DNA from: an uncultured Trueperaceae bacterium
GTDB lineage: Bacteria > Deinococcota > Deinococci > Deinococcales > Trueperaceae
Direction of reading: 5' to 3'
DNA length: 64,000 nt
Assembly (NCBI GenBank): GCA_937873495.1
Contig: CALMXZ010000010.1
Location: 310,001-374,000, forward strand
The translations under genes were made by a program, and so were the position numbers. The notes beneath the pieces were generated by a model. That model ran no database searches. It was not told the origin of the DNA and saw only the letters and a list, made by a program, of their open reading frames with translations. Of the stretch, positions 47,298-64,000 are shown in pieces. Every line of letters starts with the position of its first letter. Positions within the stretch are counted from its first letter, which is position 1.

Positions 47298-49385
47298 CTA
47301 GAACCCGCAGACGGGGGCGCCGAGGCCGCCGAGCGCGTCGAGCTCGCCGGCGCTTAGTGGCCCTCTCGGCAACGTCCCTACCAGCCGACCGGCCGCGAGT
47401 CGTTGCGAGAGCGTCGTCCCCCACTGGGCGTTCGGGTTGATGGCCACCTCGTAGAGCGGCTGGCGCAGTTCGTGGTCGGTCGGGCGGAAAGCGACGTCGC
47501 CTGCCTTGCCGCCGAGGCTCCCGGCATCGACCTCGAGCAGTGCTGCGCTCAGCGCGGCGCCGTCGGCGCTGTCCGCCAGGCGCGCCGCGGCCGTCAGCAC
47601 GGCGACGGCCTCGTAGGCGGCCCAGGCCGGGGCGTCGAACGGCTGACCCCAGCGTGCCGCGAACCGCTCGTTCGTGTCTGCTGCCGCGGCGCCGAGCGTC
47701 GGTTCCCAGAGCTGGATGCGCGGCACGTCCCTGCCGACCCCGTAGCGGTTGGTCGACGCCAGGAACTCCCGCGTCTGCGTGACGGGGTCGGGGAAGGGCG
47801 CCATGCGCAAGGCGTAGCCGCCGTCCTCCGCCTGACCGATCAGCGCCACCTGATCGGCGGCGTCGAGCAGCACCGCGACCACGCCGGCCCCCAGGCTCGT
47901 CGCCTCGTCTAGGAGGTCGAAGTAGACGGGGCGCGCGGTGGGCACGCCGCGGCTCCCGACCACGACGTCGCCGACGGCGGCGGCGGCGAGCGTCGCCCTG
48001 GCCAGGAGCGCCTCGCCCTCGCCGCCCTCCGGGTAGACGACGTACCACCGCTGCGGAGCCGTTCCGTTCCGGTAGAGGCGCGCCATGGCGTCGAGGTAGG
48101 CCCCGGCGGACGGTTGCACGTGGAAGGTAGTCGGCCGGCACTCCTCACGCAGGGCGAGGCTCGGCGAGCCGATGTTGACGAACGGCACGCCGTGCGCGGC
48201 GGCCAACTCGGCGAGGGCCTCCGCCTGGCCGTCGCCGATGCCGCCGAGGATGGCGTCGACCTCGCCGAGCGAGAGCAGGGCGTCCGCCGCCCGCGCCGCC
48301 GCCGCGGCGCTCGGGCTGCTGGCGAGCAGGACGCGCACGTCGCGGTCGGTCGTGGTCCCGGCCTGGTTGACGACGGCCTCGGCCTGCAGCGCGCCCATGC
48401 GGGCCGCGTTGCCGACGAGGTCGTTGACGCCGGCTATGAACGTGCGCCCGCCCGTCGGCATGGGGATCACGGCGCCGACCCGCAACGTCGTCGGCGGCAG
48501 CGCCGAGTCGCCGAGGAAGGGGGCGGGCATGTCGAGGAGGGGCACGTGGTACTCGCGCAGCACGGCCTGGATGTCGTCCCACCTGGCGACGATGGCCCGG
48601 TTGAGGCGCTCCTGCATGGCGACGTCGTTACGCCGCACCGCCATCGTCATGGGCAGGTACTCGAAGATCGATGGGAAGTCGAAGGCGGGCTCCACCGGCT
48701 TGACGACGAGCTCGACCTGGCTGAGGGCGGCGTAGTACGCCATCACCGGACCCCAGCCGAAGCCAACGTCGATGGCACCCGACCCGATGTCCCTCACCAC
48801 GACGCCGAGGCGGTCCTTGCCCTCCTCCCCGCCGTAGATGCGAGCCACCCTGTCGATGAGCCGCCGCTGGCGTAACGCCTCGTGGGGTGGGATGCCGAGC
48901 CCCTGCACGCCCAGTCTGAGGTCTGCGAGGTCGGGGTCGTCCATGTCGTCGATGTCGAAGCCGGCGTCGGCCCGGTAGACGAGCACGTAAGGGCTTTGAT
49001 AGTAGGTGATGGTGTTGAGGCCCTTCTCGAAGCCGTCGGGCACGCCCATTATCACGTCGCACGTGCCTTCGGCGAAGTGCAGGTTGACGAGGTCGGAAGT
49101 GAAGGGGGTCCAGTCGTAGGTCAGGTGCGCGCCGAGCTCCTCTGCCAGGAGGGCGGCGATGCGGTTCTCGAAGCCTTCCTCCGCCTGGTTCGAGAAGGGC
49201 ATCTCGTCGGGCGCGGCGCAGACGCGCAGCTCCCAGGCGTGCTCAGAACTCTGCGCCGCGCCGCTCGAGAGCGCGGCGAGTGCCAGTGATACGAGCAGCG
49301 TCAGATAGGCGGCGCCGAGCTTGGGGTGGGCCGGGCGTCGTGAAGGCCTAGCGGTAGATAGTGTCGTGTCAACGCCTCGGAGCAT
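47298..49385 (-). CDS. Fused MoxJ/XoxJ-like and Peripla_BP_6-like periplasmic protein of a PQQ dehydrogenase system
   Basis: 695-aa exported protein made of two binding-protein folds. After a signal region (residues about 24-46), residues 50-295 match the quinoprotein-dehydrogenase-associated family of SBP_bac_3-like proteins (MoxJ/XoxJ): ELRVCAAPDEMPFSN, AEGTCDVIMGVPDGFE, YYQSPYVLVYR and GAIDVGFGWGPVMAYY. Residues about 300-695 match the binding protein of the PQQ alcohol dehydrogenase ABC system: VPFVNIGSPSLALREECRPTTFHV and HELRQPLYEVAINP. A stand-alone paralogue of the second half is encoded at 56672-58003. XoxJ proteins are thought to help assemble or activate the dehydrogenase. The fusion is unusual. 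The gene follows the dehydrogenase across a hairpin with a T-rich tail. Confidence 0.85.
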   Translation of the reverse strand: MLRGVDTTLSTARPSRRPAHPKLGAAYLTLLVSLALAALSSGAAQSSEHAWELRVCAAPDEMPFSNQAEEGFENRIAALLAEELGAHLTYDWTPFTSDLVNLHFAEGTCDVIMGVPDGFEKGLNTITYYQSPYVLVYRADAGFDIDDMDDPDLADLRLGVQGLGIPPHEALRQRRLIDRVARIYGGEEGKDRLGVVVRDIGSGAIDVGFGWGPVMAYYAALSQVELVVKPVEPAFDFPSIFEYLPMTMAVRRNDVAMQERLNRAIVARWDDIQAVLREYHVPLLDMPAPFLGDSALPPTTLRVGAVIPMPTGGRTFIAGVNDLVGNAARMGALQAEAVVNQAGTTTDRDVRVLLASSPSAAAAARAADALLSLGEVDAILGGIGDGQAEALAELAAAHGVPFVNIGSPSLALREECRPTTFHVQPSAGAYLDAMARLYRNGTAPQRWYVVYPEGGEGEALLARATLAAAAVGDVVVGSRGVPTARPVYFDLLDEATSLGAGVVAVLLDAADQVALIGQAEDGGYALRMAPFPDPVTQTREFLASTNRYGVGRDVPRIQLWEPTLGAAAADTNERFAARWGQPFDAPAWAAYEAVAVLTAAARLADSADGAALSAALLEVDAGSLGGKAGDVAFRPTDHELRQPLYEVAINPNAQWGTTLSQRLAAGRLVGTLPRGPLSAGELDALGGLGAPVCGF

Positions 49386-49555: not shown

Positions 49556-51376
49556 TCAGGGCAGACCGAAGACGTACAGCGTCGTACCGGCACGGCGGTA
49601 ACGGCCGGCGTTGTCGGCCGTCGTGTCGGTGCCGATCTGCGGGTCGGTCGGGGCCTGGCTCGTGACGACCGCCAAGTACTGCCGGCCGTCCGGGCCCGTG
49701 AAGCTCATCGGCGAGCCACGGAAGTTGGAGCCCGTGCGGAACGTCCAGAGGACCTGGCCGGTGCGGGCGTCCACGGCGCGGAACTCGCCCGTGTCGGTGC
49801 CGCCGAAGACGAGGTTGCCTGCCGTCGCAAAGACGGGCTTGGCGTCGTTGCCGGTCGAGGTCTTGAGGCCCCAGGCCTTCTGGCCGGTGACCGGGTCCCA
49901 CGCCTGCAGTTCGCCGGTCCAACCGCCGGGGCCGTCACCGATGTTCGTGAAGCTCATCAGGATGTAGCTCTCACCGGGGGTGTACTCGGCTTCCGTGCCC
50001 GTGAAGGTCGCGCAGCGGTTCTCCGCCTGGAAGTAGACGAGGCCCGTGGCGGGCGAGTAGGCGTCGTTGTACCAGTTGTTGCCCGCGATGAAGGGGCACA
50101 CCGAGATCGGCGTCGGGATGTCCGTGTAAGTGAGGGCGTCCTCGTTGTAGATCGGCATGCCGGTCGCGCGGTCGACGCCGGAGGCCCAGTTGACGTTCGT
50201 GTACGCGAACACGTCGCGGACGAGCTCGCCCGTCAGGCGGTCGAACACGTAGAAGAAGCCGTTGCGGGCGGGCTTGATGAGGGCCTTGACGACCTGGCCG
50301 TCGATGGTGAGGTCGGCCACGAAGTTCTGGCCCGGCTCGTCGAAGTCCCACTGGTCCTGCGGCGTGTTCGAGTACGCCCAGATCATCTCGCCCGTCGTCG
50401 CGTCACGCGCGATGGTCGAGGCGCAGTACTTGGACATGTACTGGTCGAGGCCCGGCGCGGTGGCCGGGTCGCGGCGGTAGTCGGGGTTCCACGGGCCGCA
50501 GTTGGCGGTGCCGTAGTAGAAGAGGTTCGACTCGGGGTCGTAAGTGAAGTAGCCCCACGCCGTGCCGCCGCCGAGCTTCCAGGAGTCGCCGTACCAGGTA
50601 TCGACGCCCGGTTCGGTCCAGCGCTTGTCGGCCTCGTAGAAGGGGTTCCAGCGTTCGCCGATGCCCATGTCGGCGTTAGGGCCAGTGTTGTAGAACTTCC
50701 AGACCTCGGCGCCGGTCTGGAGGTCGTAGGCGGCCACCCAGCCGCGCACCCCGCGCTCGCCGCCTTCGTTGCCGATCAGGATGTTGTTGCCGACGATGAG
50801 GGGGGCGTTGGTCGTGGTCTCGGTGATGCTCAGGTCCGTGACCTGAGTGTTCCAGAGCACGGCGCCAGTGTTGGCGTTGAGCGCGATGAGCTGGCCGTCG
50901 AGCGAGTTGAGGATGATCTTGCCGTCGGCGTAGCTGATGCCGCGCGACTGGGCGCCGCAACACGCTTTGGCCTGCGAGAGGTTCGGCTGGTCGACGCGGT
51001 ACGACCACTTGATGAACCCTTCGCGGGTGAGGTCGAGCGCGTACACCGTGTTCGGCTTCGGCGTGAGGATGTACATGGTGTTGCCGACCACGATGGGTGG
51101 GGCTTCGAGGGAGTCCGTGACGCCGAGCTGCAGCGTCCACTTCACCTGCAGGTTCTTGACGTTGTAGCTCGTGATCTGGTTGAGCGTGCTGTAGTTCCAG
51201 CCCTGATAGTTGCCGTTCGCCATCACCCACTGGCCGGCATCGCGCTGGATGCGGATGAGTTCGGCGTTGGCGAAGGCCGCACCGACCGTGAGGAGTAAGG
51301 CGAGCGCGCAGCCGAGCGCGATGGAGCGTCGGCCACTGCGTTTGGCGGTTTGCTTATACGTCATGCTTGTTGCCAC
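49556..51376 (-). CDS. PQQ-dependent alcohol dehydrogenase with lanthanide-type Asp-x-Asp signature
   Basis: Periplasmic eight-bladed quinoprotein of 606 aa, methanol/ethanol dehydrogenase family, oxidising alcohols and passing electrons to cytochrome c. The signal peptide ends near AAFANA. Visible active-site features are the vicinal disulfide Cys139-Cys140 (KACCGAQSRG), metal ligand Glu207 (GGERGVRG), Asn292 (YGTANCGPWN), catalytic Asp344 and Asp346 in QWDFDEPG. Asp at catalytic position +2 marks lanthanide-dependent XoxF/ExaF/PedH enzymes; calcium enzymes have Ala, Ser or Thr there. Tryptophan-docking repeats (DARTGQVLW type) occur throughout. The start is GTG at 51376; an ATG at 51364 has similar support. 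It lies 81 bases after its cytochrome gene. The exact alcohol is unknown. Confidence 0.95.
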   Translation of the reverse strand: MATSMTYKQTAKRSGRRSIALGCALALLLTVGAAFANAELIRIQRDAGQWVMANGNYQGWNYSTLNQITSYNVKNLQVKWTLQLGVTDSLEAPPIVVGNTMYILTPKPNTVYALDLTREGFIKWSYRVDQPNLSQAKACCGAQSRGISYADGKIILNSLDGQLIALNANTGAVLWNTQVTDLSITETTTNAPLIVGNNILIGNEGGERGVRGWVAAYDLQTGAEVWKFYNTGPNADMGIGERWNPFYEADKRWTEPGVDTWYGDSWKLGGGTAWGYFTYDPESNLFYYGTANCGPWNPDYRRDPATAPGLDQYMSKYCASTIARDATTGEMIWAYSNTPQDQWDFDEPGQNFVADLTIDGQVVKALIKPARNGFFYVFDRLTGELVRDVFAYTNVNWASGVDRATGMPIYNEDALTYTDIPTPISVCPFIAGNNWYNDAYSPATGLVYFQAENRCATFTGTEAEYTPGESYILMSFTNIGDGPGGWTGELQAWDPVTGQKAWGLKTSTGNDAKPVFATAGNLVFGGTDTGEFRAVDARTGQVLWTFRTGSNFRGSPMSFTGPDGRQYLAVVTSQAPTDPQIGTDTTADNAGRYRRAGTTLYVFGLP

Positions 51377-51457: not shown

Positions 51458-52234
51458 TTACCGCCGGGAACTCACCTCCTCTGGAAGAACGGCACCGTAG
51501 TCGTTGCCGAAGGAGTTGCGTACGAACGTGATGACGCCGGCGATCTTCTGGTCGTCGAGAGCGGCCTTGAAGGGCGGCATGCCGTGCTCGATGAAGCCGT
51601 TGAGCACGCGTTCGACGATGAAGTCGGTGTTGCCGACGATGGTGTTGCTTGCCAGGGCCGGACCGATGCGCCCTTCGCCCTTGTCGCCGTGGCACACGGC
51701 GCAGTTCGCGGCGAAGACGGCCGCGCCCTCCGTCATGAGCGCGTCGAGGGCGGTCTCAGGGAGATCGACCTTCTGCTCGGGTAGCTTGTCGAGGATGGCG
51801 TCGCCGGCGGGAGACACGAGGAAGAACTCGCCGCCGAGCTTCTGACCGCGCGTCGTGCCGGGCGCCGTGTCGCGCTTGAAGGTGTAGAGGGGGTGACCGT
51901 TGTAGGTGAGCTGGACGCTGCCGTCGGCGCGCGTGGCGGTGCCGACCAGGCTCTGGTCGGCACCTTCGCCGGCAGTGGCGACGCCGTCCTCGCCCGCGAG
52001 CAGAGCGATCCAGTTGTTGGCGCATGCGTCGACACAGGCGCTGGCGTCGGCCTCGTCCTTCGTGTACAGGTAAAGGGAGTGCCCATCGGGCGTGACCAAG
52101 TAGGTGCCGTAGTCGGCCGTGGTGACGACCGTGAGATCGGCCGGAGCCGCTTCCTGGGCGATGACGTAGAAAGTCAGGCCGGCCACGACCAGTGCCGTGA
52201 GTAGGGCGAGACGTTTGAGCTTCCTGTCGATCAT
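51458..52234 (-). CDS. Secreted-repeat (Lipoprotein_15) domain fused to cytochrome c
   Basis: 258-aa exported protein. A signal segment (residues 8-27) is followed by a domain with two copies of the secreted-repeat motif: GTYLVTPDGHSLYLYTKD with CVDACANNW (residues 42-75) and LTYNGHPLYTFKRD through LGGEFFLVSPAG (109-144). The C-terminal cytochrome c (165-245) has the heme motif CAVCH at 178-182 and likely axial Met219 (HGMPPF). Its place directly upstream of the dehydrogenase suggests it is the electron acceptor (XoxG/ExaB role). GGAGGAG lies 6 bases before the ATG. Fusion to the repeat domain is unusual for this partner. Confidence 0.9.
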   Translation of the reverse strand: MIDRKLKRLALLTALVVAGLTFYVIAQEAAPADLTVVTTADYGTYLVTPDGHSLYLYTKDEADASACVDACANNWIALLAGEDGVATAGEGADQSLVGTATRADGSVQLTYNGHPLYTFKRDTAPGTTRGQKLGGEFFLVSPAGDAILDKLPEQKVDLPETALDALMTEGAAVFAANCAVCHGDKGEGRIGPALASNTIVGNTDFIVERVLNGFIEHGMPPFKAALDDQKIAGVITFVRNSFGNDYGAVLPEEVSSRR

Positions 52235-52448: not shown

Positions 52449-52814
52449 GTAGCGAGGCATCGTGTACGACGAAGAGTGGTCGGCCGCTGCCGTGGTGGAC
52501 GGGAAAGAGCCACGGGCCGAACATCGGTGCTCACCGATGCGAGAGGGTAGCGTCGGCTCGGCTAGGTACTGGTCTCGGGGCGCGTGCTATCCTGCTTGTT
52601 CGCGGCCCGCGTAACGCGCCTCGGGCGTGACGGGCGTGACGGGCGGGTGCCGGAGCCGAGCTCCGCATCTCGCCGGCGAGCAGGTGACAGGAGTAAGAGC
52701 TTCTGCGCGGGGACAAGTGAGAATGGTCGGGCGGCCCGGGTGGTCGTCCATGGTTTCGTGTCGTGGCACCGAACCGTGCGCTGCACGGCGGCGGGCGCTT
52801 CTCGGGAGGTAACG
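52449..52814. other. Upstream region and long leader of rpoD
   Basis: About 365 bases between the dehydrogenase-operon promoter and the rpoD start. An extended -10 motif TGCTATCCT lies at 52585-52593 on the plus strand and is the best rpoD promoter candidate, giving a leader of about 215 bases. Part of that leader has short GACGGGCGTGACGGGCG-type direct repeats (52627-52647). I see no supported small gene. Confidence 0.45.
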
Positions 52815-54773
<1,959 letters not shown>

Positions 54774-54884: not shown

Positions 54885-55853
54885 TCACGGCGCGGCCGAC
54901 CCGGCGACGATCGGGAGCGAGAGCTCGGCCGTCAAGCCCCTCTCGGAGTTGGAGAGGTTGAGGTCGCCCTCTAGCGCTTTCGCCAGGAACGCGACGAACG
55001 ACAGCCCCAACCCCATGCCGTCGCCGTCGCCGGCGCGGTAGAACGGCTCGATGGCTCGCTCGAGGTGAGGCGAGGCGAGGCCGGGCCCTTCGTCGTTGAC
55101 TGAGAGGGTCACGAAGCGCTCGCCGACCCGCAGCTCGACCGTCGCGCCGCCGCTCCCATGCCGCAGAGCGTTGTCGAGCAGGTTGGTCACAGCTTGCTGG
55201 AAGAGGCGCGCGTGCCTGACGGGCGTGTCAGCTAAGGCCGGCAGGAGCCTCACGCGGCCCCGTTCGTCGGGGGTGAGGCCGGAGATCACGTCCGTGACGA
55301 CGGCGGAGGCCGAACGCGTGTCAGGCTGCGGCTCGGAGGCGCGCGCGAGCGCCAGGAGCGCCGCCAGGATCTCTTCCAGCTGCGCCACCGCGCGCGCCAG
55401 CGCGGGCATGACCTCGGCAGCGGGGACGTAGCCGAGCTGGGCGCGCTCGATCTGCAGCCGCATGGCGCTCAGGGGCGTACGCAGCTCGTGGGAGGCGTAG
55501 CGGGTGAAGGCCCGTTCGCGGTCGACGTACCCCTCGATGGTCGCGGCCATGGCGTTGAAGCTGGTCGCCAGTTCGGCGAGCTCGTCTCTGCCGGCAGGGA
55601 CCTGGAGCGGCCGGTCGAACGACTGGCGTGCGACGTGCCTGGTCGCCTCGGTCAGCCGCCGCAGCGGCGCGCCTATGCGGCGGGCGAGCAGCCAGGCCGC
55701 GAGGACGGCGATGCCGAGCATGATCGGGATGTCGATCAGGTCGAGGAAGAGCCGCTCGTCCTCGAACTGGTCGATCCACACGTCGAGGAGGCCCTCCACG
55801 AGGATGGAGCACGCGACCGCGCCGAGCACGGCGACGAAGACGGAGCGCCGCAC
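54885..55853 (-). CDS. Two-component sensor histidine kinase
   Basis: Inner-membrane kinase of 322 aa. Two N-terminal helices (about 4-20 and 40-58) enclose a periplasmic loop of only about 20 residues, so there is no dedicated sensor domain. A HAMP domain (about 60-112) leads to the dimerisation/phosphoacceptor box SHELRTPLSAM (His near 121) and a HATPase domain with the N-box NLLDNALRHG, NDEGPGL and GMGLGLSFV. It lies 1 base after the response regulator stop. Its place inside the PQQ island suggests, but does not prove, that it responds to alcohol oxidation or envelope state. Confidence 0.93.
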   Translation of the reverse strand: MRRSVFVAVLGAVACSILVEGLLDVWIDQFEDERLFLDLIDIPIMLGIAVLAAWLLARRIGAPLRRLTEATRHVARQSFDRPLQVPAGRDELAELATSFNAMAATIEGYVDRERAFTRYASHELRTPLSAMRLQIERAQLGYVPAAEVMPALARAVAQLEEILAALLALARASEPQPDTRSASAVVTDVISGLTPDERGRVRLLPALADTPVRHARLFQQAVTNLLDNALRHGSGGATVELRVGERFVTLSVNDEGPGLASPHLERAIEPFYRAGDGDGMGLGLSFVAFLAKALEGDLNLSNSERGLTAELSLPIVAGSAAP

Positions 55854-55854
55854 G

Positions 55855-56514
55855 TCAGGCCGGCCCCAGCCGGTAGCCGCCCGGCACGGTCTGGATGATC
55901 CCGTCGGAGATCTTGTGGCGGAGCTGGCTGACGTAGACGCGCACCACGCTGGCGCCGGACGTGGCCTCGGGGAAGAAGCGGTCGAGGAGCTCGTCCGTGC
56001 TGAACGTGCGGTCGGGGTAATGGGCGAAGTACTCGAGCATCACGAACTCGCGCTCGGTCAGGTCGACGTTGGAGCCGGCCCACATGACCCTGCGCGTCGT
56101 CAGGTCGATGCGCAGCTCGGCCCTCTCGAACACGGCGCGCTTGGTGTCCGCGACGCGGCGGAGGAGCGCGCGTACCCGCGCCATGAACTCACGCAGGCCG
56201 AACGGCTTGTAGAGGTAGTCGTCGCCGCCGAGGTCGAGGCCCATGACCGCGTCGCCTTCGGTGTCGCGCGCGCTCATGAACATGAGCGGGGCGAGGAAGC
56301 CCTGGCTCCGCAGCGTCGTGGCCACCTCGAAACCGGCGTCGTCGTTGCCGGGGAACATGACGTCGAGGATGGCGAGGTCGAAGCCGCCGCTGGTGAACTC
56401 CTGGAAGACGTCGTCCGGGCGCTCCACCCACCTGACGTCGTAACGCTGCGACTCGAGGGCCTCGACGAGCGGCTCGGCGATGTCGCGGTTGTCTTCCAAC
56501 AACAGGATGCGCAT
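55855..56514 (-). CDS. OmpR-family response regulator
   Basis: 219-aa regulator. The receiver domain has acidic Glu7/Asp8 (LLLEDNRD), phosphoacceptor Asp in AILDVMFPG, Ser in FMSARD and Lys in YLYKPFG. The winged-helix domain (about 125-218) includes LTEREFVMLEYFA and VRVYVSQLRHKI. It is the first gene of the RR-HK pair and is divergent from the periplasmic binding protein gene; a 14-bp perfect palindrome lies between them. Confidence 0.94.
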   Translation of the reverse strand: MRILLLEDNRDIAEPLVEALESQRYDVRWVERPDDVFQEFTSGGFDLAILDVMFPGNDDAGFEVATTLRSQGFLAPLMFMSARDTEGDAVMGLDLGGDDYLYKPFGLREFMARVRALLRRVADTKRAVFERAELRIDLTTRRVMWAGSNVDLTEREFVMLEYFAHYPDRTFSTDELLDRFFPEATSGASVVRVYVSQLRHKISDGIIQTVPGGYRLGPA

Positions 56515-56554
56515 GGCGTCTCTCGTGTGCGTCGTGGACTGGCTTGGCGGACGG

Positions 56555-56568
56555 GGCCGACGTCGGCC
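56555..56568. promoter_or_regulatory. 14-bp perfect palindrome in the divergent RR/binding-protein region
   Basis: GGCCGAC-GTCGGCC, next to an AT-rich stretch CCTATATCATC (56570-56580) that offers -10 boxes on both strands. Its position between the response regulator and the plus-strand arm suits a shared operator. OmpR-type proteins usually bind direct repeats, so the binder may be another regulator. Confidence 0.5.
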
Positions 56569-56671
56569 ATCCTATATCATCGCCTCCTGGAATCGGAAGC
56601 ATTCCGTCGACCCGAGCGCCGGCGGGGTCGCTTCGCCCACGCCAGGGGGACGGGATGGAGGCGGAACGAAG

Positions 56672-58003
56672 TTGAACGAAGCCGTCAGATCATCGATCGG
56701 TGACGATGAAGCGCGTAACGGGGCCGTACGGCGGTTGAGGCGGAGCGCGGCGACCACGGTCGCCGCGCTCGCGCTCCTCGTCGGGACGGTGAGTGCGCAG
56801 GAGGGCCTGGAGGCCGGCTTCCGGGTCGGGATCGTCCTCCCAGGTCCGGGCGAGGAAGGCGCCGCTATCAGCGGGGCGCTGGCGCGCGGCGCCGCGCAGG
56901 GCGCCGCGATGGCGAACGACGAGTTCGGCTTCAACGCGGAGATGCTCGGCTACGTGTTCTCTGCGGAGACGGCGGTGGCCGACGGCCCCGAGGGCGTCGT
57001 GGCCGCCGCGCAGGCGCTGCTGGACGAGCACGGGGTCTACGGCGTCGTCGGCGGCTTCGACCTGGCCGAGGCCGAGGCCCTCGCCGAATGGTCGGCCGAG
57101 GTCGGGGTGCCGTTCATCAACGTCGGCGCCTCCGCCGACGTGCTCCGCAACGAGCAGTGCCGGCCGACGCTCTTCAACGTGGAGCCGAGCGCGGCCATGT
57201 ACCTGGACGCCATGGCCGGCTGGTACGTGCGCTCCGGTCTGCGCGACTGGTACTTCCTGCTGGCCGGCGACGACGAGTCCGCGGCGCAGCTGGGCCGGAT
57301 CGAGCGCACCCTCAACGAGCGCCACTTCGCGGCGAACGTCGCCGGCAGCACGGTCGTCGGACCGACCACCGACTGGGACGACATCGCGGCGCGCATCTCA
57401 CGTTCGCGCGCCGACTTCGTCATCCTCTTCATGGGCGCAGAGGACCAGCTCGCCGCCGTCCACGAGCTGGACGCGCGCGGGGTATCCGCCATGGTGACCG
57501 GCTACCCCTACCAGGCGGCGCAGACCAGGGACTTCTACCGGGCGTGGCGCGCCGCCGCCCCGACGCTCGGCGCCGGTCACCGCATCTCGGCCTGGGAGGC
57601 GACCCTCGACGCCTACGGCGCGCGTGAGCTCAACGCCCGCTACCGCATGACGTACGGCGAGCCAATGGACACGAGCGCCTGGGCCGTCTACCAGGGCGTG
57701 AAGATCCTGTACGAGGCGGCGTTCTTCGGCAGCTCGGCGGCGCCGGACGCCGTGATGGCCTACCTCACCGGCCCGCAGTCGGTGTTCGACGTCTGGAAGG
57801 GCATCGGCACGAGCTTCAGGCCGTGGGACCACCAGCTGCGCCAGCCGCTCTACCTCGTGAAGATCGACCGGACCGAGGAGGCCGCGTTCACCCTCGCCAC
57901 GTTGGTCGGCGAGCTCCCCGCCATCTACATGCCGGGCACTGAAGTCGTCGAGCGGCTCGACCAGTTGGGCGAGTTGGCGGCCGCCAGCCGCTGCGGCAGG
58001 TGA
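56672..58003 (+). CDS. Periplasmic binding protein of the PQQ alcohol dehydrogenase ABC system
   Basis: Exported Peripla_BP_6-like protein of 443 aa. A twin-Arg-like basic stretch and signal (VAALALLVGTVSAQ) precede FRVGIVLPGPGEEGAA. VPFINVGASADVLRNEQCRPTLFNVEPS and HQLRQPLYLVKI are the features of the binding protein found with PQQ alcohol dehydrogenases. The same segments occur in the second half of the fused protein at 47298-49385. The TTG start has GGAGG 9 bases upstream; a longer frame has no SD. It heads the plus-strand arm of the island. Confidence 0.87.
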   Translation: MNEAVRSSIGDDEARNGAVRRLRRSAATTVAALALLVGTVSAQEGLEAGFRVGIVLPGPGEEGAAISGALARGAAQGAAMANDEFGFNAEMLGYVFSAETAVADGPEGVVAAAQALLDEHGVYGVVGGFDLAEAEALAEWSAEVGVPFINVGASADVLRNEQCRPTLFNVEPSAAMYLDAMAGWYVRSGLRDWYFLLAGDDESAAQLGRIERTLNERHFAANVAGSTVVGPTTDWDDIAARISRSRADFVILFMGAEDQLAAVHELDARGVSAMVTGYPYQAAQTRDFYRAWRAAAPTLGAGHRISAWEATLDAYGARELNARYRMTYGEPMDTSAWAVYQGVKILYEAAFFGSSAAPDAVMAYLTGPQSVFDVWKGIGTSFRPWDHQLRQPLYLVKIDRTEEAAFTLATLVGELPAIYMPGTEVVERLDQLGELAAASRCGR

Positions 58004-58105
58004 GGCCTGCTTACTTACGTTCGCCTTACGTAGCGACGATAACGTGGTGCGGCACGACCCTCGTGACTCACTGCCCTGGTGTCGTAGCGTCGTTCGCTCG
58101 TACAT

Positions 58106-58128
58106 GCTCGCGCTCGTTGGACGCGAGC
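58106..58128 (+). other. Stem-loop abutting the SD of the beta-propeller gene
   Basis: GCTCGCG/CGCGAGC, a 7-bp stem with a 9-base loop, ending directly before the GGGAGG SD. It could modulate translation initiation or stabilise the transcript. No direct evidence. Confidence 0.35.
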
Positions 58129-58139
58129 GGGAGGAGACC

Positions 58140-59186
58140 ATGGAGCATCCGAAACGTCTCGCCGCCGCCATCCGCGTAGGCTTGCTCGCCCTGGGGGTCG
58201 GCCTGGTGTCGGCCGCCGGCACGGCGCTGGCCCAGGACTCGTACCGGCTGTACGTCGCCAACGAGTTCAGCGCCGACATCACGGTCATCGACACGGCGAG
58301 CGGTGAGGTCATCGATACCCTGTCCATCTCCGGCAGGCCGGGCGAGGTCCGGCCGCGCGGCATGGCGGTCAGCCCGGACGGCACGATCGTCTACGCCTCG
58401 GTGAGCGACTTCAACCCGGTGCTCGAGACGCCGGAGGACAAGATCCTCGCCATCGACGTGCGCACCAACGAGGTCGTGCGCGAGTTCCGCGCCGGCGGCA
58501 ACCCCGAGCGGGTCGCGGTCAGCCCCGACGGCACGCAGGTTTGGGCGGCCCTCGAGGCGATCGCCCAGGGCGCGGGCTACGACGCCGTCACCGGCGAGCA
58601 GCTCGCCAGCTTCCGAGTGGGCGTCGAGGCCGAGGGCGTGGCGGTCAGTCCGGACGGCAAGTGGGTCTACATCACGGCCGAGGCCACCCACACGGTCACG
58701 GTGATCGACCGCGAGGCGCTCAAGGTCGTCACGCACGTGCTGGTCGGCAACCGGCCCCGCGTCGTCGAGTTCTCCAACGACGGCAGCAGGGCGTACGTGA
58801 CCGCCGAGATCGGCGGCACCGTCTCCGTCATCGACACGAGCACGCACAAGGTCGTGAACACGATCAACCTCGGCCTCGACTCGCGGCCGGTCGAGATCGC
58901 CGTCGATCCGACGAGCTCCCTCATCTACGTGGCGGGCGGCGGCACGAGCGCCGTCTACGTCATCGACACGACCACCGACCAGATCGTCAACACGATCAAG
59001 GAGAACATGGGGCGGCGCCCGTGGGGCATCGCCATCACGCCGGACGGCAAGACGGTCTTCACGGCCAACGGCCTCTCGGATAGCGTCAGCGTCATCGACA
59101 CGGCCTGCGGCTGCGTCGTCAAGAACATCCCTGCCGGTCGGGGTGCCCACTCGGCCGAGATCGGAGTGATCCCAGGTGGTATCTAG
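58140..59186 (+). CDS. YVTN beta-propeller protein of the PQQ alcohol dehydrogenase system
   Basis: Exported seven-bladed beta-propeller of 348 aa. The signal peptide ends at GTALAQ. Repeats of the YVTN type follow: RLYVANEFSADITVIDTASGEV, VAVSPDGTQVWAAL, VYITAEATHTVTVIDRE, IYVAGGGTSAVYVIDT and VFTANGLSDSVSVIDT in turn. This is the family annotated as PQQ-dependent catabolism-associated beta-propeller. GGGAGG precedes the ATG at 58140 by 5 bases. A Cys-Gly-Cys near the C-terminus (TACGCVV) is noteworthy. It overlaps the next gene by 11 bases. Confidence 0.9.
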   Translation: MEHPKRLAAAIRVGLLALGVGLVSAAGTALAQDSYRLYVANEFSADITVIDTASGEVIDTLSISGRPGEVRPRGMAVSPDGTIVYASVSDFNPVLETPEDKILAIDVRTNEVVREFRAGGNPERVAVSPDGTQVWAALEAIAQGAGYDAVTGEQLASFRVGVEAEGVAVSPDGKWVYITAEATHTVTVIDREALKVVTHVLVGNRPRVVEFSNDGSRAYVTAEIGGTVSVIDTSTHKVVNTINLGLDSRPVEIAVDPTSSLIYVAGGGTSAVYVIDTTTDQIVNTIKENMGRRPWGIAITPDGKTVFTANGLSDSVSVIDTACGCVVKNIPAGRGAHSAEIGVIPGGI

Positions 59187-60261
59187 GCTCTTCCGCGGCA
59201 CGGCGCTCGCGCTCGTCGCCGCCTTCATCGCTACGGCCTTCGCCCAGTACGGCTACCAGCCGTTCTTCGACCAGCCGCTCATCCAGAGCCGTGCGTACGG
59301 CATGGAGCTCATCCTGGTGCGGCTGCGCGCCATCGACCAGTTCGACGCGCCGCTCGACGACGACCTCATGGAGCTGATCGAGCTGATCGGCGAGAGCGAC
59401 GTCAACCGCTTCATAGGCACGGTGCGCGCCGCCGATCCTGAACTGGCTGAGGAGCTGCTCGACGAGATCGAGGAGCTCGAGGAGAAGGCGGAGGAGGGCA
59501 GGAACCACCACGGCTCCGTCCGCGAGGTCCGCGAACTCACCGAGCGTGCCTACGACCTGATCATCCCGTCCGAGATCCGCAAGTCGCCTGCGTTCCTTGC
59601 TGCGTTGATCGCCGATCTCACCTTGGGTGAGGGCGGTATCGCCGAAGGTTACGAGGAGGCCATCCTCGACGAGGAGCCGTTCCTGTTCACTGGCGGCTGG
59701 TCCTCGCTGCAGAGCGTCAAGGAGCTATGGTCGCAGCTCGCCGTCTACGCCACACCGGCGCAGGCCGCCGACGTGAACGAGATGCTCGCCCAGCTCGACG
59801 GCATCTACTTCGCCCCTGAACCGCCGGAACCCCTCGTCGGCAACCCCGAGGAGGCCGAGGCGCCGGCCCAGCGCATGCTTGGCCTCATCGAACCCATCGC
59901 CGACGCCGAAGTGTTCGCCGGTCGCGACATGCAGGCGTTGGCCGTCAGCCTCGTCGCCACGCAGGCGCAGGCGTGCCGCGCCTACGAGGCAGGCAACGAC
60001 GAGGTGGGCCTCGAAGGCGTGTACGCCGTCGGCGAGATGTACGCCAGGTACCTGGCCGGGTTCCTCGGCTTCATGGCCCCCGACGTGCACGAAGAGGCTG
60101 CCGAGACCATCTACGCCCTCACCGGCATCCAGGACGAGGGGGCGGAGGACGAGGACGACGAGGACGAGGAAGACGAGCGTCCGGCGGTCGCCGACCCGGC
60201 CGACGCCTGCCGCGAACTGCTCGAGGCACTCGAAGAAGCTGTAGAGGTTCTGGGAGGCTGA
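59176..60261 (+). CDS. Unrecognised secreted protein with acidic tail in the PQQ island
   Basis: 361-aa protein, family not recognised. A signal peptide (FRGTALALVAAFIATAFAQ) precedes a mostly helical, acidic protein with Glu-rich segments (LLDEIEELEEKAEEG) and a C-terminal acidic stretch of Asp/Glu over about 15 residues near position 317-332. Two Cys occur late (QACRAYEAG and DACRELLEAL). The GTG start overlaps the propeller stop by 11 bases, so it is made with the propeller and precedes the ABC genes. Acidic runs could bind calcium or lanthanide ions, but that is only a guess. Confidence 0.78.
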   Translation: MVSRLFRGTALALVAAFIATAFAQYGYQPFFDQPLIQSRAYGMELILVRLRAIDQFDAPLDDDLMELIELIGESDVNRFIGTVRAADPELAEELLDEIEELEEKAEEGRNHHGSVREVRELTERAYDLIIPSEIRKSPAFLAALIADLTLGEGGIAEGYEEAILDEEPFLFTGGWSSLQSVKELWSQLAVYATPAQAADVNEMLAQLDGIYFAPEPPEPLVGNPEEAEAPAQRMLGLIEPIADAEVFAGRDMQALAVSLVATQAQACRAYEAGNDEVGLEGVYAVGEMYARYLAGFLGFMAPDVHEEAAETIYALTGIQDEGAEDEDDEDEEDERPAVADPADACRELLEALEEAVEVLGG

Positions 60262-60364: not shown

Positions 60365-61300
60365 ATGAGCCCGACCGGCAGCGCCACCACTGTCATGGGC
60401 GGACCCGGGGACGACCAAGCGGCCATACTTGCAGACCGGCTCGGCCGCCGTTACGGAGACGTGACGGCGGTCGAGTCTTTCTCGCTGGCCATCCGGCCGG
60501 GCGAGTTCTTCGCCCTCCTCGGCCCCAACGGCGCCGGCAAGACGACCACGCTGCACATGCTCACGACCATGGTCCGGCCCACGGCCGGCACCGCGTCGGT
60601 GTTCGGACTCGACGTCGTGCGCCAGGCCCACGCGGTCAGGCGGCTCCTCGGCATGGTCTTCCAGGATCCGGCGCTCGACGACCGCCTGACCGCCAAGGAG
60701 AACCTCGAGATCCACGCCGTCCTGTACGGCATCGGGCGCAGTGAGCGCGCGCACGTGATCGAACGGGCCCTCGAATGGGCGGCGCTCACGGAGGCGCGCG
60801 ACAGACGCGTGCGGTCCTTCTCGGGCGGCATGAAGCGGCGCCTGGAGCTCGCCCGCGCGCTCACCCACTCGCCCAGGGTCCTGTTCCTCGACGAGCCGAC
60901 CATCGGCCTCGACCCGCAGGGGCGACGCAACCTCTGGGAGCACATCGCTGCGCTCCGCGAGGGCGGCATGACGGTCCTAATGACGACGCACAACCTGCCC
61001 GAGGCCGAGGCGTGCGACCGCGTCGGCATCATGGACGCCGGTCGCCTCGTCGCCGTCGGCACCCCGCGGGAGCTCGTCGCGCGCTACGGGGGGGCCGGTG
61101 CCGGCGGAGCCGAGGTCGCGATGCCGGGCCCAGGCAGGCTAGACCAGAACGCGCCTGGCCAGGCGCCGCGGGACTCGGAACCCGCCGACCTGGAGGACGT
61201 GTTCATCGCCCTCACCGGGAAGCAGCTGCGTGACGAGCAGGCGACGGCGCGCGACCGACTGGTGAGCTTCGCCAAGCGCGGCGGGGAGCACACGCGGTGA
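60365..61300 (+). CDS. ABC transporter ATP-binding protein of the PQQ alcohol dehydrogenase system
   Basis: ABC-2-type ATPase of 311 aa. Walker A GPNGAGKTT, Q-loop VFQDPALDD, signature FSGGMKRRLELARAL, Walker B VLFLDEPTIGLD and switch MTTHNLPEAE are all intact. The C-terminal 80 residues, Gly/Pro-rich, extend past the core. In known PQQ cassettes this ATPase pairs with the permease that follows. TACTCT lies 8-13 bases before the ATG with no SD, so a separate, nearly leaderless transcript is possible. Confidence 0.92.
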   Translation: MSPTGSATTVMGGPGDDQAAILADRLGRRYGDVTAVESFSLAIRPGEFFALLGPNGAGKTTTLHMLTTMVRPTAGTASVFGLDVVRQAHAVRRLLGMVFQDPALDDRLTAKENLEIHAVLYGIGRSERAHVIERALEWAALTEARDRRVRSFSGGMKRRLELARALTHSPRVLFLDEPTIGLDPQGRRNLWEHIAALREGGMTVLMTTHNLPEAEACDRVGIMDAGRLVAVGTPRELVARYGGAGAGGAEVAMPGPGRLDQNAPGQAPRDSEPADLEDVFIALTGKQLRDEQATARDRLVSFAKRGGEHTR

Positions 61301-62223
61301 GGGCGGGGAACCAAGGGGTCCTTGGCCCCTTCGGCGCCAAGGCGGTCGGCGTCCGCTCCTTGGCCGGCATCGCTCCGGCCGTGGTGCTCGTCATGTGGCG
61401 CCGCGAGATGAAGCGTTACCTCCGCGACCGCTCGCAGATCTTCGGCGGCTTCTCCCGCACCGTGCTCTGGCTGGTCATCCTCGGCTACGGCCTCGGCGCC
61501 TCGCTGCGCGAGATCGAGGGCTACACGTACGGTCAGTACATCCTGCCCGGCGTCATCGTGCTCAACGTGCTCTTCGCCGCGCTGCAGTGCGCCATCGCGC
61601 TCGTATGGGACCGGGAGGTGGGCCTGCTCCGCGAGGTGGTCGTCTCTCCGGCGCCCATGTTCTCTGTCACGCTCGGCAAGCTCCTCGGTGGCGCGACCAT
61701 CTCCCTCATCCAGGGCTCGATCCCCCTCCTGTTCGCGCCGCTCATCGGCGTGCGCCTTAGCGTCGGTGGGCTGCTCGGCGCCTGGGGCGTGATCTTCTGC
61801 CTCGGCGTCTTCATGACGGCCGTCGGCGTCATCATCGCCACGCGCCTCAAGACGTTCGAGGGCTTCGGTAGCATCTCGAACGGCGTCATCCAGCCGCTCT
61901 ACTTCCTCTCCGGCTCGATCTTCCCGCTGCGGGGCGTCATCGGCGGGGTCGGCTTCCTTGACATCCCCGACCAGCTGCGCGACGAGCTACGGCGCATCGG
62001 GGTGTTCGCGATCGGCGGCGGCTGGGTCGTGCAGCTCCCGGAGTGGCTCAAGGTCCTCGTCTACGCCAACCCCGTGAGCTACCAGCTCGACCTGCTGCGC
62101 CACGCGCTGCTGCGCTTCCACCAGTTGCCCATGACCGCCGACGTGCTCGTCACGGTCCTGGCGCCGGTCCTGGCTGCCGTTGTGGCCGCCGCGCTGATGC
62201 GGAGGATGACGGCCCAGCGGTGA
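61297..62223 (+). CDS. ABC-2 type permease of the PQQ alcohol dehydrogenase system
   Basis: ABC-2 membrane protein of 308 aa with six predicted helices. WRREMKRYLRDRSQIFGGFSRTVLWLVI in pieces, YIQYILPGV-like GQYILPGVIVLNVLF and the later LYFLSGSIFPL segment are typical of the permease found beside PQQ alcohol dehydrogenases. It begins with GTG overlapping the ATPase stop (GTGA). It probably exports a substrate or product, or a lipid, together with the ATPase; the compound is unknown. Confidence 0.9.
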   Translation: MRAGNQGVLGPFGAKAVGVRSLAGIAPAVVLVMWRREMKRYLRDRSQIFGGFSRTVLWLVILGYGLGASLREIEGYTYGQYILPGVIVLNVLFAALQCAIALVWDREVGLLREVVVSPAPMFSVTLGKLLGGATISLIQGSIPLLFAPLIGVRLSVGGLLGAWGVIFCLGVFMTAVGVIIATRLKTFEGFGSISNGVIQPLYFLSGSIFPLRGVIGGVGFLDIPDQLRDELRRIGVFAIGGGWVVQLPEWLKVLVYANPVSYQLDLLRHALLRFHQLPMTADVLVTVLAPVLAAVVAAALMRRMTAQR

Positions 62224-62289: not shown

Positions 62290-63039
62290 TCAGGGGCCCG
62301 CCGCTCCGCCGCGCAAGGCGGTCACGGCCTGCCGCGACAGCTCCCAGAGCCGCGGATCGTCCGCGTCCCGCGGGCGCGGCAGGCTGTCCGCCGGGCGGAT
62401 CTCGCCGACGATGCGGCCCGGCCCTGGGCTCATGACGAGGATGCGATCGGCGAGGAACGCGGCCTCGAGCGGGTTGTGGGTCACGAACAGGACGGTGCAC
62501 CGGAGCTCGGCCCAGAGCGCGAGCAGCTCGACGCGCATGCGCGAGGCCGTCAGCTCGTCGAGGGCCGAGAACGGTTCGTCCATGAGGAGCACGTCCGGTT
62601 GCACGATCAGCGCGCGCGCGACCGCCACCCGCTGCCGCTGGCCGATGGAGAGCTGCCGAGGGTAGTCGTCGCCTCGGCCGCCCAACCCGACGCGCTCGAG
62701 CCATGCGTCGACGAGCGCCTTCGCCCCACGGCGCTCGTCGAGCACGAAGCGCAGGTTCGCGCCGACCGTCGACCACGGCATGAGCCGCGGCTCCTGGAAC
62801 ACGTAGCTGATCACGGGCTTGCGGCCACGACCGCGGAGGACCTCGACCGTACCGCCGTCCGGCGTGTCAAGCCCGGCCAACACGTTCAGGAGGGTCGTCT
62901 TGCCGCAGCCGGACGGACCGATGATGCATACGAGCTCCCCGCTCGCGACGTCGAGGTCGACCCCGGCGATGGCGGGGCGCGCGCCGCCCGCGTTGGCGGC
63001 GTAAGACTTGGTGATGCCGCGTGCCCTCAGCTCCGCCAT
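62290..63039 (-). CDS. ABC transporter ATP-binding protein (SsuB/TauB family)
   Basis: ATPase of 249 aa for a nitrate/sulfonate/taurine-type importer. Walker A GPSGCGKTTLLN, Q-loop VFQEPRLMPW, signature LSIGQRQRVAVARAL, Walker B VLLMDEPFSALD and switch FVTHNPLEA are intact. The start is ATG at 63039, overlapping the stop of the permease by 1 base (TGATG); the longer open frame is a shadow of the permease. It is convergent with the PQQ permease gene and shares no obvious link to the island. Confidence 0.93.
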   Translation of the reverse strand: MAELRARGITKSYAANAGGARPAIAGVDLDVASGELVCIIGPSGCGKTTLLNVLAGLDTPDGGTVEVLRGRGRKPVISYVFQEPRLMPWSTVGANLRFVLDERRGAKALVDAWLERVGLGGRGDDYPRQLSIGQRQRVAVARALIVQPDVLLMDEPFSALDELTASRMRVELLALWAELRCTVLFVTHNPLEAAFLADRILVMSPGPGRIVGEIRPADSLPRPRDADDPRLWELSRQAVTALRGGAAGP

Positions 63040-63821
63040 CAGCCGACCGCGCTGACCTTGACCGGCGCCCGCCAGCGGAAGGCGAAGTGCTGGATGGCGC
63101 CCATGAGCCCGAGGTCGACGACGGCCAGCAGGAGCATCATCGTCACGCCGTAGGCGAGGACGCCGGTCATGTTGAAGAACTGGAAGTAGAACGAGATCTG
63201 GTAACCGACGCCGGACGTGCGCCCGAGCAGCTCGCCGAGGACGACCATCTTCCACGTCAGCGCCAGCGCGCCGCGCGCGGTGCCTACCAGGTAGGGGGTC
63301 AGTTGGGGGAAGACGATGCGGCGCCAGATGGTCGCGCGCGAGCGGCGGAAGGCCACGGCCATCTCGACGAGCCCGCCGTCTATCGCCCGAGCGCCTTCGC
63401 GCACGGCGACCGTGACGGTGGGCATGATCGTGATGACGAGGGCAAGCACGAGCGCGCGGTCTGACAGGCCGATGCTCAAGTAGGCGACCACGAACAGGAC
63501 GATCCGCGGCACGGTCAGCGCGACGACCAGCCACGCCTGCAGCAGGTCGTCGACCTTGCGCGACAGCCCCATGGCGGCGCCGAGCGCCGTGCCGGCCAGC
63601 ATGCCGATCACGAAGGCCGTCAGCACCCGCTGGGCGGTGACCACGAGGTTCGGCACCAGCACGCCCCGCTCGGCCTCGCGCAGGATGAACGCGAACGTCT
63701 CGACCGGGCCCGGCAGCACGTTGGGTCCGAGGACGCGTCCGCCGACGAGCCACAGTCCGGCGATCGAGGCGTACGAGACCAAGCGGAGGGCGGTCCGTGC
63801 GCCCCTGGTAGGCGAACGCAC
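63039..63821 (-). CDS. ABC transporter permease (SsuC/TauC family)
   Basis: Inner-membrane permease of about 260 aa with six helices. The EAA loop region reads VEMAVAFRRSRATIWRRIVFP. It starts with GTG at 63821, 11 bases after the stop of the upstream binding protein; a CTG overlapping that stop is also in frame. It is translationally coupled to the ATPase. The substrate class is sulfonate, nitrate or pyrimidine precursor (NMT1-type), not further resolvable. Confidence 0.88.
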   Translation of the reverse strand: MRSPTRGARTALRLVSYASIAGLWLVGGRVLGPNVLPGPVETFAFILREAERGVLVPNLVVTAQRVLTAFVIGMLAGTALGAAMGLSRKVDDLLQAWLVVALTVPRIVLFVVAYLSIGLSDRALVLALVITIMPTVTVAVREGARAIDGGLVEMAVAFRRSRATIWRRIVFPQLTPYLVGTARGALALTWKMVVLGELLGRTSGVGYQISFYFQFFNMTGVLAYGVTMMLLLAVVDLGLMGAIQHFAFRWRAPVKVSAVG

Positions 63822-63832
63822 CGCGGCCTTAC

Positions 63833-64000
63833 TCAGTCCGGCAGGAACTCGAGAGTGTAGGCGGCCGGGTCGACCCCGTCGACACCGACGACCTCGGGGC
63901 CGGCGAGTTCGACCAGGCGAGCGACCATCGCGGTCAGGCCGTCGATGGACGCCTGCGTCCACGTGGTGGTCGTGCCCATCTTCCAGCGCTCGACGACGCT
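63833..64000 (-). CDS. C-terminal end of an ABC substrate-binding protein (partial)
   Basis: About 55 C-terminal residues, reading WKMGTTTTWTQASIDGLTAM near the edge and ending TLEFLPD at the stop. The frame is open to the right edge. The position 5' to an SsuC-like permease and ATPase makes it the likely binding protein of that importer (NMT1/SsuA-like). The length and N-terminus are outside the window. Confidence 0.6.
   Translation of the reverse strand, partial: SVVERWKMGTTTTWTQASIDGLTAMVARLVELAGPEVVGVDGVDPAAYTLEFLPD

Follow-up and report, generated by a model that had tools for sequence, protein, structure and literature searches.

A probable lanthanide quinoprotein alcohol dehydrogenase with a conserved accessory module in an uncultured Trueperaceae bacterium

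The window, that is, the whole stretch of 64,000 nucleotides from an uncultured Trueperaceae bacterium (Deinococcota) that was analysed here, encodes a dehydrogenase that is a probable lanthanide quinoprotein. As judged from sequence, it comes with a conserved accessory module and belongs to a clade outside the named families. An earlier note had predicted rare-earth-dependent alcohol oxidation from an Asp-x-Asp (D-x-D) signature. This is still the best-supported prediction for the enzyme and the signature is real, but the signature is not decisive alone, as ligand-altered paralogues and a glucose dehydrogenase share it. The open reading frame is located on the minus strand; the earlier note had given no strand.

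49556-51376, minus strand: PQQ-dependent alcohol dehydrogenase, 606 amino acids; TIGR03075, best PDB match XoxF 4mae, predicted Sec signal peptide (read by eye)

The reading frame starts with GTG at 51376, and an in-frame ATG is found at residue 5. The protein scores 503.8 bits against TIGR03075, the PQQ-dependent methanol/ethanol dehydrogenase family, for which the curated cut-off is 480.05. A HMMER search of PDB sequences identified 4mae (XoxF of Methylacidiphilum fumariolicum SolV) as the closest solved relative (E 8.1e-124), and PedH 6zcw was matched with E 1.2e-71. An AlphaFold model built with 4 sequences had a mean pLDDT of 54.5. With 11 sequences, the mean rose to 67.7 (pTM 0.77), and pLDDT was below 50 at the catalytic loop (residues 339-346) and the vicinal-cysteine region (134-141). 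The best fold match of the model was XoxF 6dam (Z 43.4, rmsd 2.3 Å over 514 residues), a match that is not independent because the model was built partly on XoxF-type rows. The dehydrogenase is the single match in the host genome (G000) at E <= 0.001, and therefore no calcium-type partner was seen there. A 96% identical gene is carried by a genome of the same genus as the host (G003), and likewise by contig CAUJFI010000100.1 (L022).

50339-50347, minus strand: codons of Asp344-Phe345-Asp346, the D-x-D signature (translation and alignment)

Alignment showed that the dehydrogenase carries Cys139-Cys140, Arg145, Glu207, Asn292, Asp344, Asp346, and Arg371. Asp344 and Asp346 (within WDFDE) fall on the WDYDG motif of 4mae in the HMMER alignment, and Asp is likewise found two positions after the catalytic Asp when the protein is aligned by MAFFT with the 10 PDB references. 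The signature and the vicinal cysteines, Glu, and Asn ligands proposed in the earlier note were all recovered, and these residues together make up the XoxF pattern. The +2 residue is Asp in 4mae, 7o6z, 6dam, 6oc5, and PedH 6zcw, Ala in MxaF 4tqo and 1g72, Ser in ExaA 1flg, and Thr in 1kb0 and 1kv9, with metals that we take to be those suggested by the PDB names and titles and by general knowledge. Where calcium-type MxaF has Ala, the dehydrogenase has Asp346.

The rule that lanthanide enzymes have Asp at this position and calcium enzymes have Ala, Ser, or Thr agrees with the 10 references, but it does not separate the wider family. All 32 non-reference rows with a letter at +2 have Asp and none has a calcium-type residue; paralogues with altered ligands are among them. 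D-x-D is also present in the characterised membrane glucose dehydrogenase, which reportedly binds Ca, Mg, Zn, and Sr (PMC11996626). Because the ligand-altered Deinococcota paralogues keep it too, D-x-D looks necessary rather than sufficient and is weak evidence alone. In the clade of the dehydrogenase, Asp346 is conserved in 9/9 rows, some of them just ~48% identical, which on sequence grounds is more than chance. Several Deinococcota paralogues (L008, L009, L010, and L011, in rows at ~1470 or 1353, as well as L048:5587 and L054:12358) have Asp for Glu and Gln for Asn and lack the vicinal cysteines while keeping D-x-D. They possibly represent a second metal-site variant.

The sequence around the motif reads D-x-D-E-P in the dehydrogenase, in contrast to D-x-D-G-[VI]-N in XoxF and PedH, and Cys293 directly follows the Asn ligand where XoxF has Pro. 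In an alignment of 53 rows, the clade showed the variants D-x-D-E-P, D-x-D-E-[IV], D-x-D-L-P, and D-x-D-S-P, and nearly all D-x-D rows outside it read D-x-D-[GA]-[VI]-N (L098 is the exception). The metal-binding Asn is followed by Cys or Gly in the clade (NC or NG; the flank is also written NC[GA]P), whereas NP is found elsewhere. None of the 9 clade rows has the C-terminal GxGG(W) loop that methanol dehydrogenases, including XoxF, carry. It is present in 31 of the 33 non-clade rows with a complete C-terminus (missing in L082 and L085), a count that leaves out the C-terminally incomplete sequence of XoxF1 7o6z. In MxaF, this loop contributes Trp540 and Leu547 above the pocket. The flank differences and the loss of GxGG predict a different substrate pocket.

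Three maximum-likelihood trees (40, 53, and 43 rows) grouped the dehydrogenase with other Deinococcota rows and L021 in a clade that has support of at least 100/99. This clade is sister to all sampled methanol dehydrogenases, namely XoxF1, 2, 4, and 5, MxaF, and probable XoxF3 rows; the methanol dehydrogenases without the clade were supported at 92/82 (40 rows), 98/95 (53 rows), and 99/97 (43 rows). In these trees, the enzyme lies outside the XoxF/MxaF branch. A grouping of the clade with PedH/ExaA, as expected for an ExaF/PedH member, was also tried and rejected (AU p 2.27e-54). In the phylogenetic check proposed in the earlier note, the protein thus fell outside both the sampled XoxF clades and ExaA/PedH. 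Joining the clade to XoxF3-like rows was not rejected on 53 rows (AU p 0.091) and was weakly rejected on 43 rows (AU p 0.0138), a set that was chosen after the first value was known, so this rejection is only marginal. The rows are labelled XoxF3 on the strength of the cytochrome oxidase genes near the dehydrogenase in L060; such neighbours are described for XoxF3 (PMC10875860). The 40-row tree omits the fragments L034_1 and L037_0, plus L048_7445. The 53-row tree combines 14 locus rows with the 10 references and 29 newly added proteobacterial loci; the thirtieth, L077, is a duplicate of L023 and was left out. For the 43-row tree, 3 rows were added and 13 were removed (L063, L075, L078, L083, L084, L086, L087, L089, L091, L094, L096, L097, and L098), including three long-branch rows flagged in the 53-row tree.

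The genes near the dehydrogenase encode a cytochrome fusion, a XoxJ-domain fusion, and a two-component system.

51458-52234, minus strand: secreted Lipoprotein_15 (SCO0930-like) repeats fused to a C-terminal c-type cytochrome (PF03640 7.4e-26; PF13442 6.8e-13)
47298-49385, minus strand: fusion of a XoxJ/MoxJ domain and a Peripla_BP_6/PedA1-like domain, downstream of the dehydrogenase (TIGR03871, PF13458, PDB 6onp)
54885-55853, minus strand: histidine kinase with HAMP, HisKA, and HATPase_c domains (domain searches); also retained next to the module in G003, G004, G005, and G009
55855-56514, minus strand: OmpR-type response regulator (domain searches, locus comparison)

The cytochrome fusion is encoded upstream of the dehydrogenase on the same strand, and its gene adjoins an alcohol dehydrogenase homologue in many of the compared loci. 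It is likely the electron acceptor of the dehydrogenase. It scores 95.7 bits against SCO0930_lipo, under the cut-off of 275, and only 36.5 bits against the XoxG/cytochrome cL model TIGR03872, which demands 147.8. In the downstream fusion, the XoxJ/MoxJ domain is N-terminal (residues 52-284, about 48534-49232) and the Peripla_BP_6/PedA1-like domain is C-terminal (residues 318-650, about 47436-48434). The fusion narrowly passes TIGR03871 (213.5 against 212.15 bits) and matches the XoxJ structure 6onp with E 7.8e-33; its match to TIGR03863 is weak. Only the XoxJ part was matched in G069 and G097, and likewise in L052 and L056. Flanked by the cytochrome gene and the genes of the two-component system, 52584-54773 on the plus strand encodes an RpoD that is extended at the N-terminus by a long Ala/Lys-rich segment.

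A set resembling the lanthanide transporter genes pedA1A2BC is located beyond the RpoD gene and the two-component system, and is followed by SsuB/SsuC-like genes.

56480-58003, plus strand: PedA1-like periplasmic binding protein (TIGR03863 129.2 bits, cut-off 413.6; PF13458); true start probably ~56672
58044-59186, plus strand: PedA2-like YVTN beta-propeller protein (TIGR03866 221.1 bits, cut-off 287.3)
59176-60261, plus strand: conserved secreted protein without a known family, encoded after the PedA2-like and before the PedB-like gene
60365-61300, plus strand: PedB-like ABC ATPase (TIGR03864 219.5 bits, cut-off 302.25)
61297-62223, plus strand: PedC-like ABC-2 permease (TIGR03861 116.7 bits, cut-off 241.35)
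62290-63153, minus strand: SsuB-like ABC importer ATPase, accompanying the module
63039-63962, minus strand: SsuC-like ABC importer permease; most of the gene for the associated NMT1-type binding protein is outside the window (L064:3833-5164)

The order of binding protein, beta-propeller protein, ATPase, and permease next to a PQQ-dependent alcohol dehydrogenase is that of PedA1A2BC, with one extra gene between the beta-propeller protein and the ATPase. All four Ped models match, but all scores are below the curated cut-offs, and the set was therefore rejected as a proven lanthanide transporter. The ATPase scores higher against the drug-export family drrA (290.8 bits) and the permease against the drug-export family drrB (143.6 bits), yet these values are also under the cut-offs of 312.45 and 223.05. 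On a Mesorhizobium plasmid (L060), the same four-gene order was found near XoxJ and a 41% identical dehydrogenase, and all four proteins exceed the Ped cut-offs. In P. putida KT2440, PedH-dependent growth at nanomolar La requires PedA1A2BC (PMC6839425; PMC12997753). The product of the extra gene had no match in NCBIfam, Pfam, or PDB. A homologue was found in 7/7 other loci examined, by position beside the PedA2-/PedB-like genes, and a passage on the P. putida ped cluster lists no gene like it (PMC12997753). Conserved cysteines and an AE[GS]YE[ED]A motif were observed in this protein. Its acidic C-terminal tail was considered as a lanthanide site and rejected, being missing in 3/8 rows and not conserved.

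Comparison of the window proteins with 27 loci showed that the module is conserved. Genes for the cytochrome fusion, the dehydrogenase, the XoxJ domain, and the PedA1-, PedA2-, PedB-, PedC-, SsuB-, and SsuC-like proteins are clustered, in varying order, in G003, G004, G005, G009, G069, G070, and L021; G097 has the same module without a detected cytochrome fusion. The PedC-like permease (E <= 1e-60) was found in 14 of 111 Deinococcota genomes, and all 14 also have a PQQ-dependent alcohol dehydrogenase homologue at E <= 1e-50, a threshold that was set after the matches were seen. Within a 61-genome subset, the two genome sets coincide (11 and 11). The p value computed for the co-occurrence ignores kinship. 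In 5 of the 14 genomes (G007, G023, G034, G035, and G036), the best dehydrogenase homologue has altered ligands, and therefore the permease tracks the dehydrogenase superfamily and not the intact site. Of the 14 genomes, 13 also have the SsuC-like permease (E <= 1e-50), which occurs in 5 further genomes that lack a PedC-like gene.

These data place the system beside several known ones. The dehydrogenase resembles XoxF in D-x-D, the Glu, Asn, and Asp ligands, Cys-Cys, and Arg, in its best sequence and fold matches, and in its XoxJ neighbour. It differs from XoxF in lying outside the methanol dehydrogenase branch (98/95, 99/97), in lacking the GxGG(W) loop, in its D-x-D-E-P and NC[GA]P flanks, and in a cytochrome neighbour far below the cytochrome cL cut-off. 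D-x-D and the same ligand set are shared with PedH/ExaF, but grouping with PedH/ExaA was rejected at AU p 2.3e-54. The N-terminal domain of the fusion is like XoxJ/MxaJ, which is here joined to a C-terminal Peripla_BP_6 domain. PedA1A2BC/Lut lanthanide ABC transporters are matched in gene order and by all four Ped models, but not in score or in the family-less extra gene. PedR2 is a LuxR-type response regulator, and the regulator of the module differs from it in being OmpR-type. The P. putida ped cluster has a PedA1A2BC set and a two-component system, a combination comparable to that of the module (PMC12997753).

The supply of the cofactor was examined in genomes that are mostly drafts (completeness is not given for G111 and G112). 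PqqB and PqqC were found in none of 9 module-bearing genomes, including the host, and both are present in the Roseicella control G112. PqqE gave nothing over the cut-off in 8 genomes, but weak matches occurred in 14/14 controls, so this search is uninformative. No TonB receptors (PF00593) were detected in 11 non-control genomes (the module is present in 9), whereas G112 gave 14 matches. Formaldehyde-activating enzyme (Fae) was also found in 0 of the same 11 genomes and is missing in the Roseicella genome too, so its absence says little beyond the loss of that single route. With no PqqB or PqqC match, the host enzyme would need external PQQ, which is probably scavenged; scavenging is common among non-producers (PMC12124388).

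Together with these data, it can be proposed with reasonable confidence that the enzyme is a lanthanide PQQ-dependent alcohol dehydrogenase with a cytochrome c acceptor, loading by the XoxJ fusion, Ped-like uptake or signalling, and scavenged PQQ. From the residues, family, neighbourhood, co-occurrence, and clade, all of which were computed, we infer the metal, the direction of electron flow, the accessory roles, and the alcohol substrate. The secreted periplasmic enzyme would most likely use a trivalent lanthanide as Lewis acid, bound with PQQ by Glu207, Asn292, Asp344 (the presumed catalytic base), and Asp346. Alcohol would be oxidized to aldehyde, and the electrons would be accepted by the c-type cytochrome whose gene lies directly upstream. 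Loading or assembly of the dehydrogenase may be aided by the XoxJ-domain fusion, and the PedA1A2BC-like set may serve lanthanide uptake or signalling. The lanthanide prediction is strengthened because a XoxJ domain and a PedA1A2BC-like set neighbour the dehydrogenase, and the gene context, including the cytochrome c fusion, supports it better than D-x-D alone. Points against it are D-x-D in glucose dehydrogenase and in ligand-altered paralogues, the Ped-like scores, the five genomes in which the PedC-like permease accompanies a ligand-altered form, the lack of PqqB and PqqC matches, and the loop pLDDT below 50.

The enzyme might instead be a PQQ dehydrogenase that depends on Ca or Mg, or accepts various metals, with the second Asp retained as an ancestral feature in the manner of membrane glucose dehydrogenase (PMC11996626). 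The uniform Asp at +2 in the 32 non-reference rows, ligand-altered paralogues included, and flanks unlike those of XoxF and PedH agree with such an enzyme. It is nevertheless unlikely: the remaining first-shell residues all match lanthanide enzymes, and the dehydrogenase is accompanied by the XoxJ domain and the Ped-like genes across loci. Failure to work as a quinoprotein, with PQQ not made in the host, is far less probable still. The PqqB, PqqC, PqqE, and TonB receptor searches favour it, but the open reading frames are intact, the catalytic residues are conserved in several genera, and the accessory module is conserved; non-producers, moreover, commonly scavenge PQQ (PMC12124388).

A different question is the substrate. 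Lacking the C-terminal GxGG(W) loop, the enzyme might act on a substrate larger than methanol or ethanol, which rivals the preferred reading on the substrate only and fits a lanthanide quinoprotein. The regular loss of GxGG in the clade against its near-regular presence elsewhere, the covering of the MxaF pocket by Trp540 and Leu547, and the lack of Fae matches point this way, but L082 and L085 outside the clade are also without GxGG. On balance, a larger substrate is a serious possibility, somewhat short of an even chance.

No report of a lanthanide alcohol dehydrogenase in Deinococcota was recognised among the papers that searches of the open-access literature brought up. If the lanthanide prediction is true, lanthanide enzymes reach this deep-branching phylum, and the clade would provide an outgroup with which to ask if methanol dehydrogenases were lanthanide-first or calcium-first. 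Because PqqB, PqqC, and TonB receptors were undetected in the hosts, the question is raised by which route rare earths and PQQ enter the periplasm. It can be suggested, tentatively and with considerable doubt, that Deinococcota hold a separate deep lanthanide alcohol dehydrogenase lineage, sister to the known methanol dehydrogenases, with a TonB-free lanthanide and PQQ supply through the Ped-like set and the SsuABC-type importer, and with the 59176-60261 protein as an undescribed lanthanide-handling component.

Related genes were also observed in genomes and contigs not labelled as Deinococcota. L021 (JACDOI010000001.1), titled as a Bacillota MAG, has the whole module, and its 68% identical dehydrogenase falls within the Deinococcota clade; this placement may be due to transfer, misbinning, or a wrong label. 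In L118 and L119, from genomes G600 and G698 of the phylum assigned to the genome of L021, dehydrogenases with XoxJ and SsuB-like neighbours fall inside the methanol dehydrogenase branch. The IMG/VR viral contigs L121, L122, L125, and L130 carry XoxF-like genes that are 52-67% identical to XoxF4/5 and are either virus-borne or located on misassigned host contigs.
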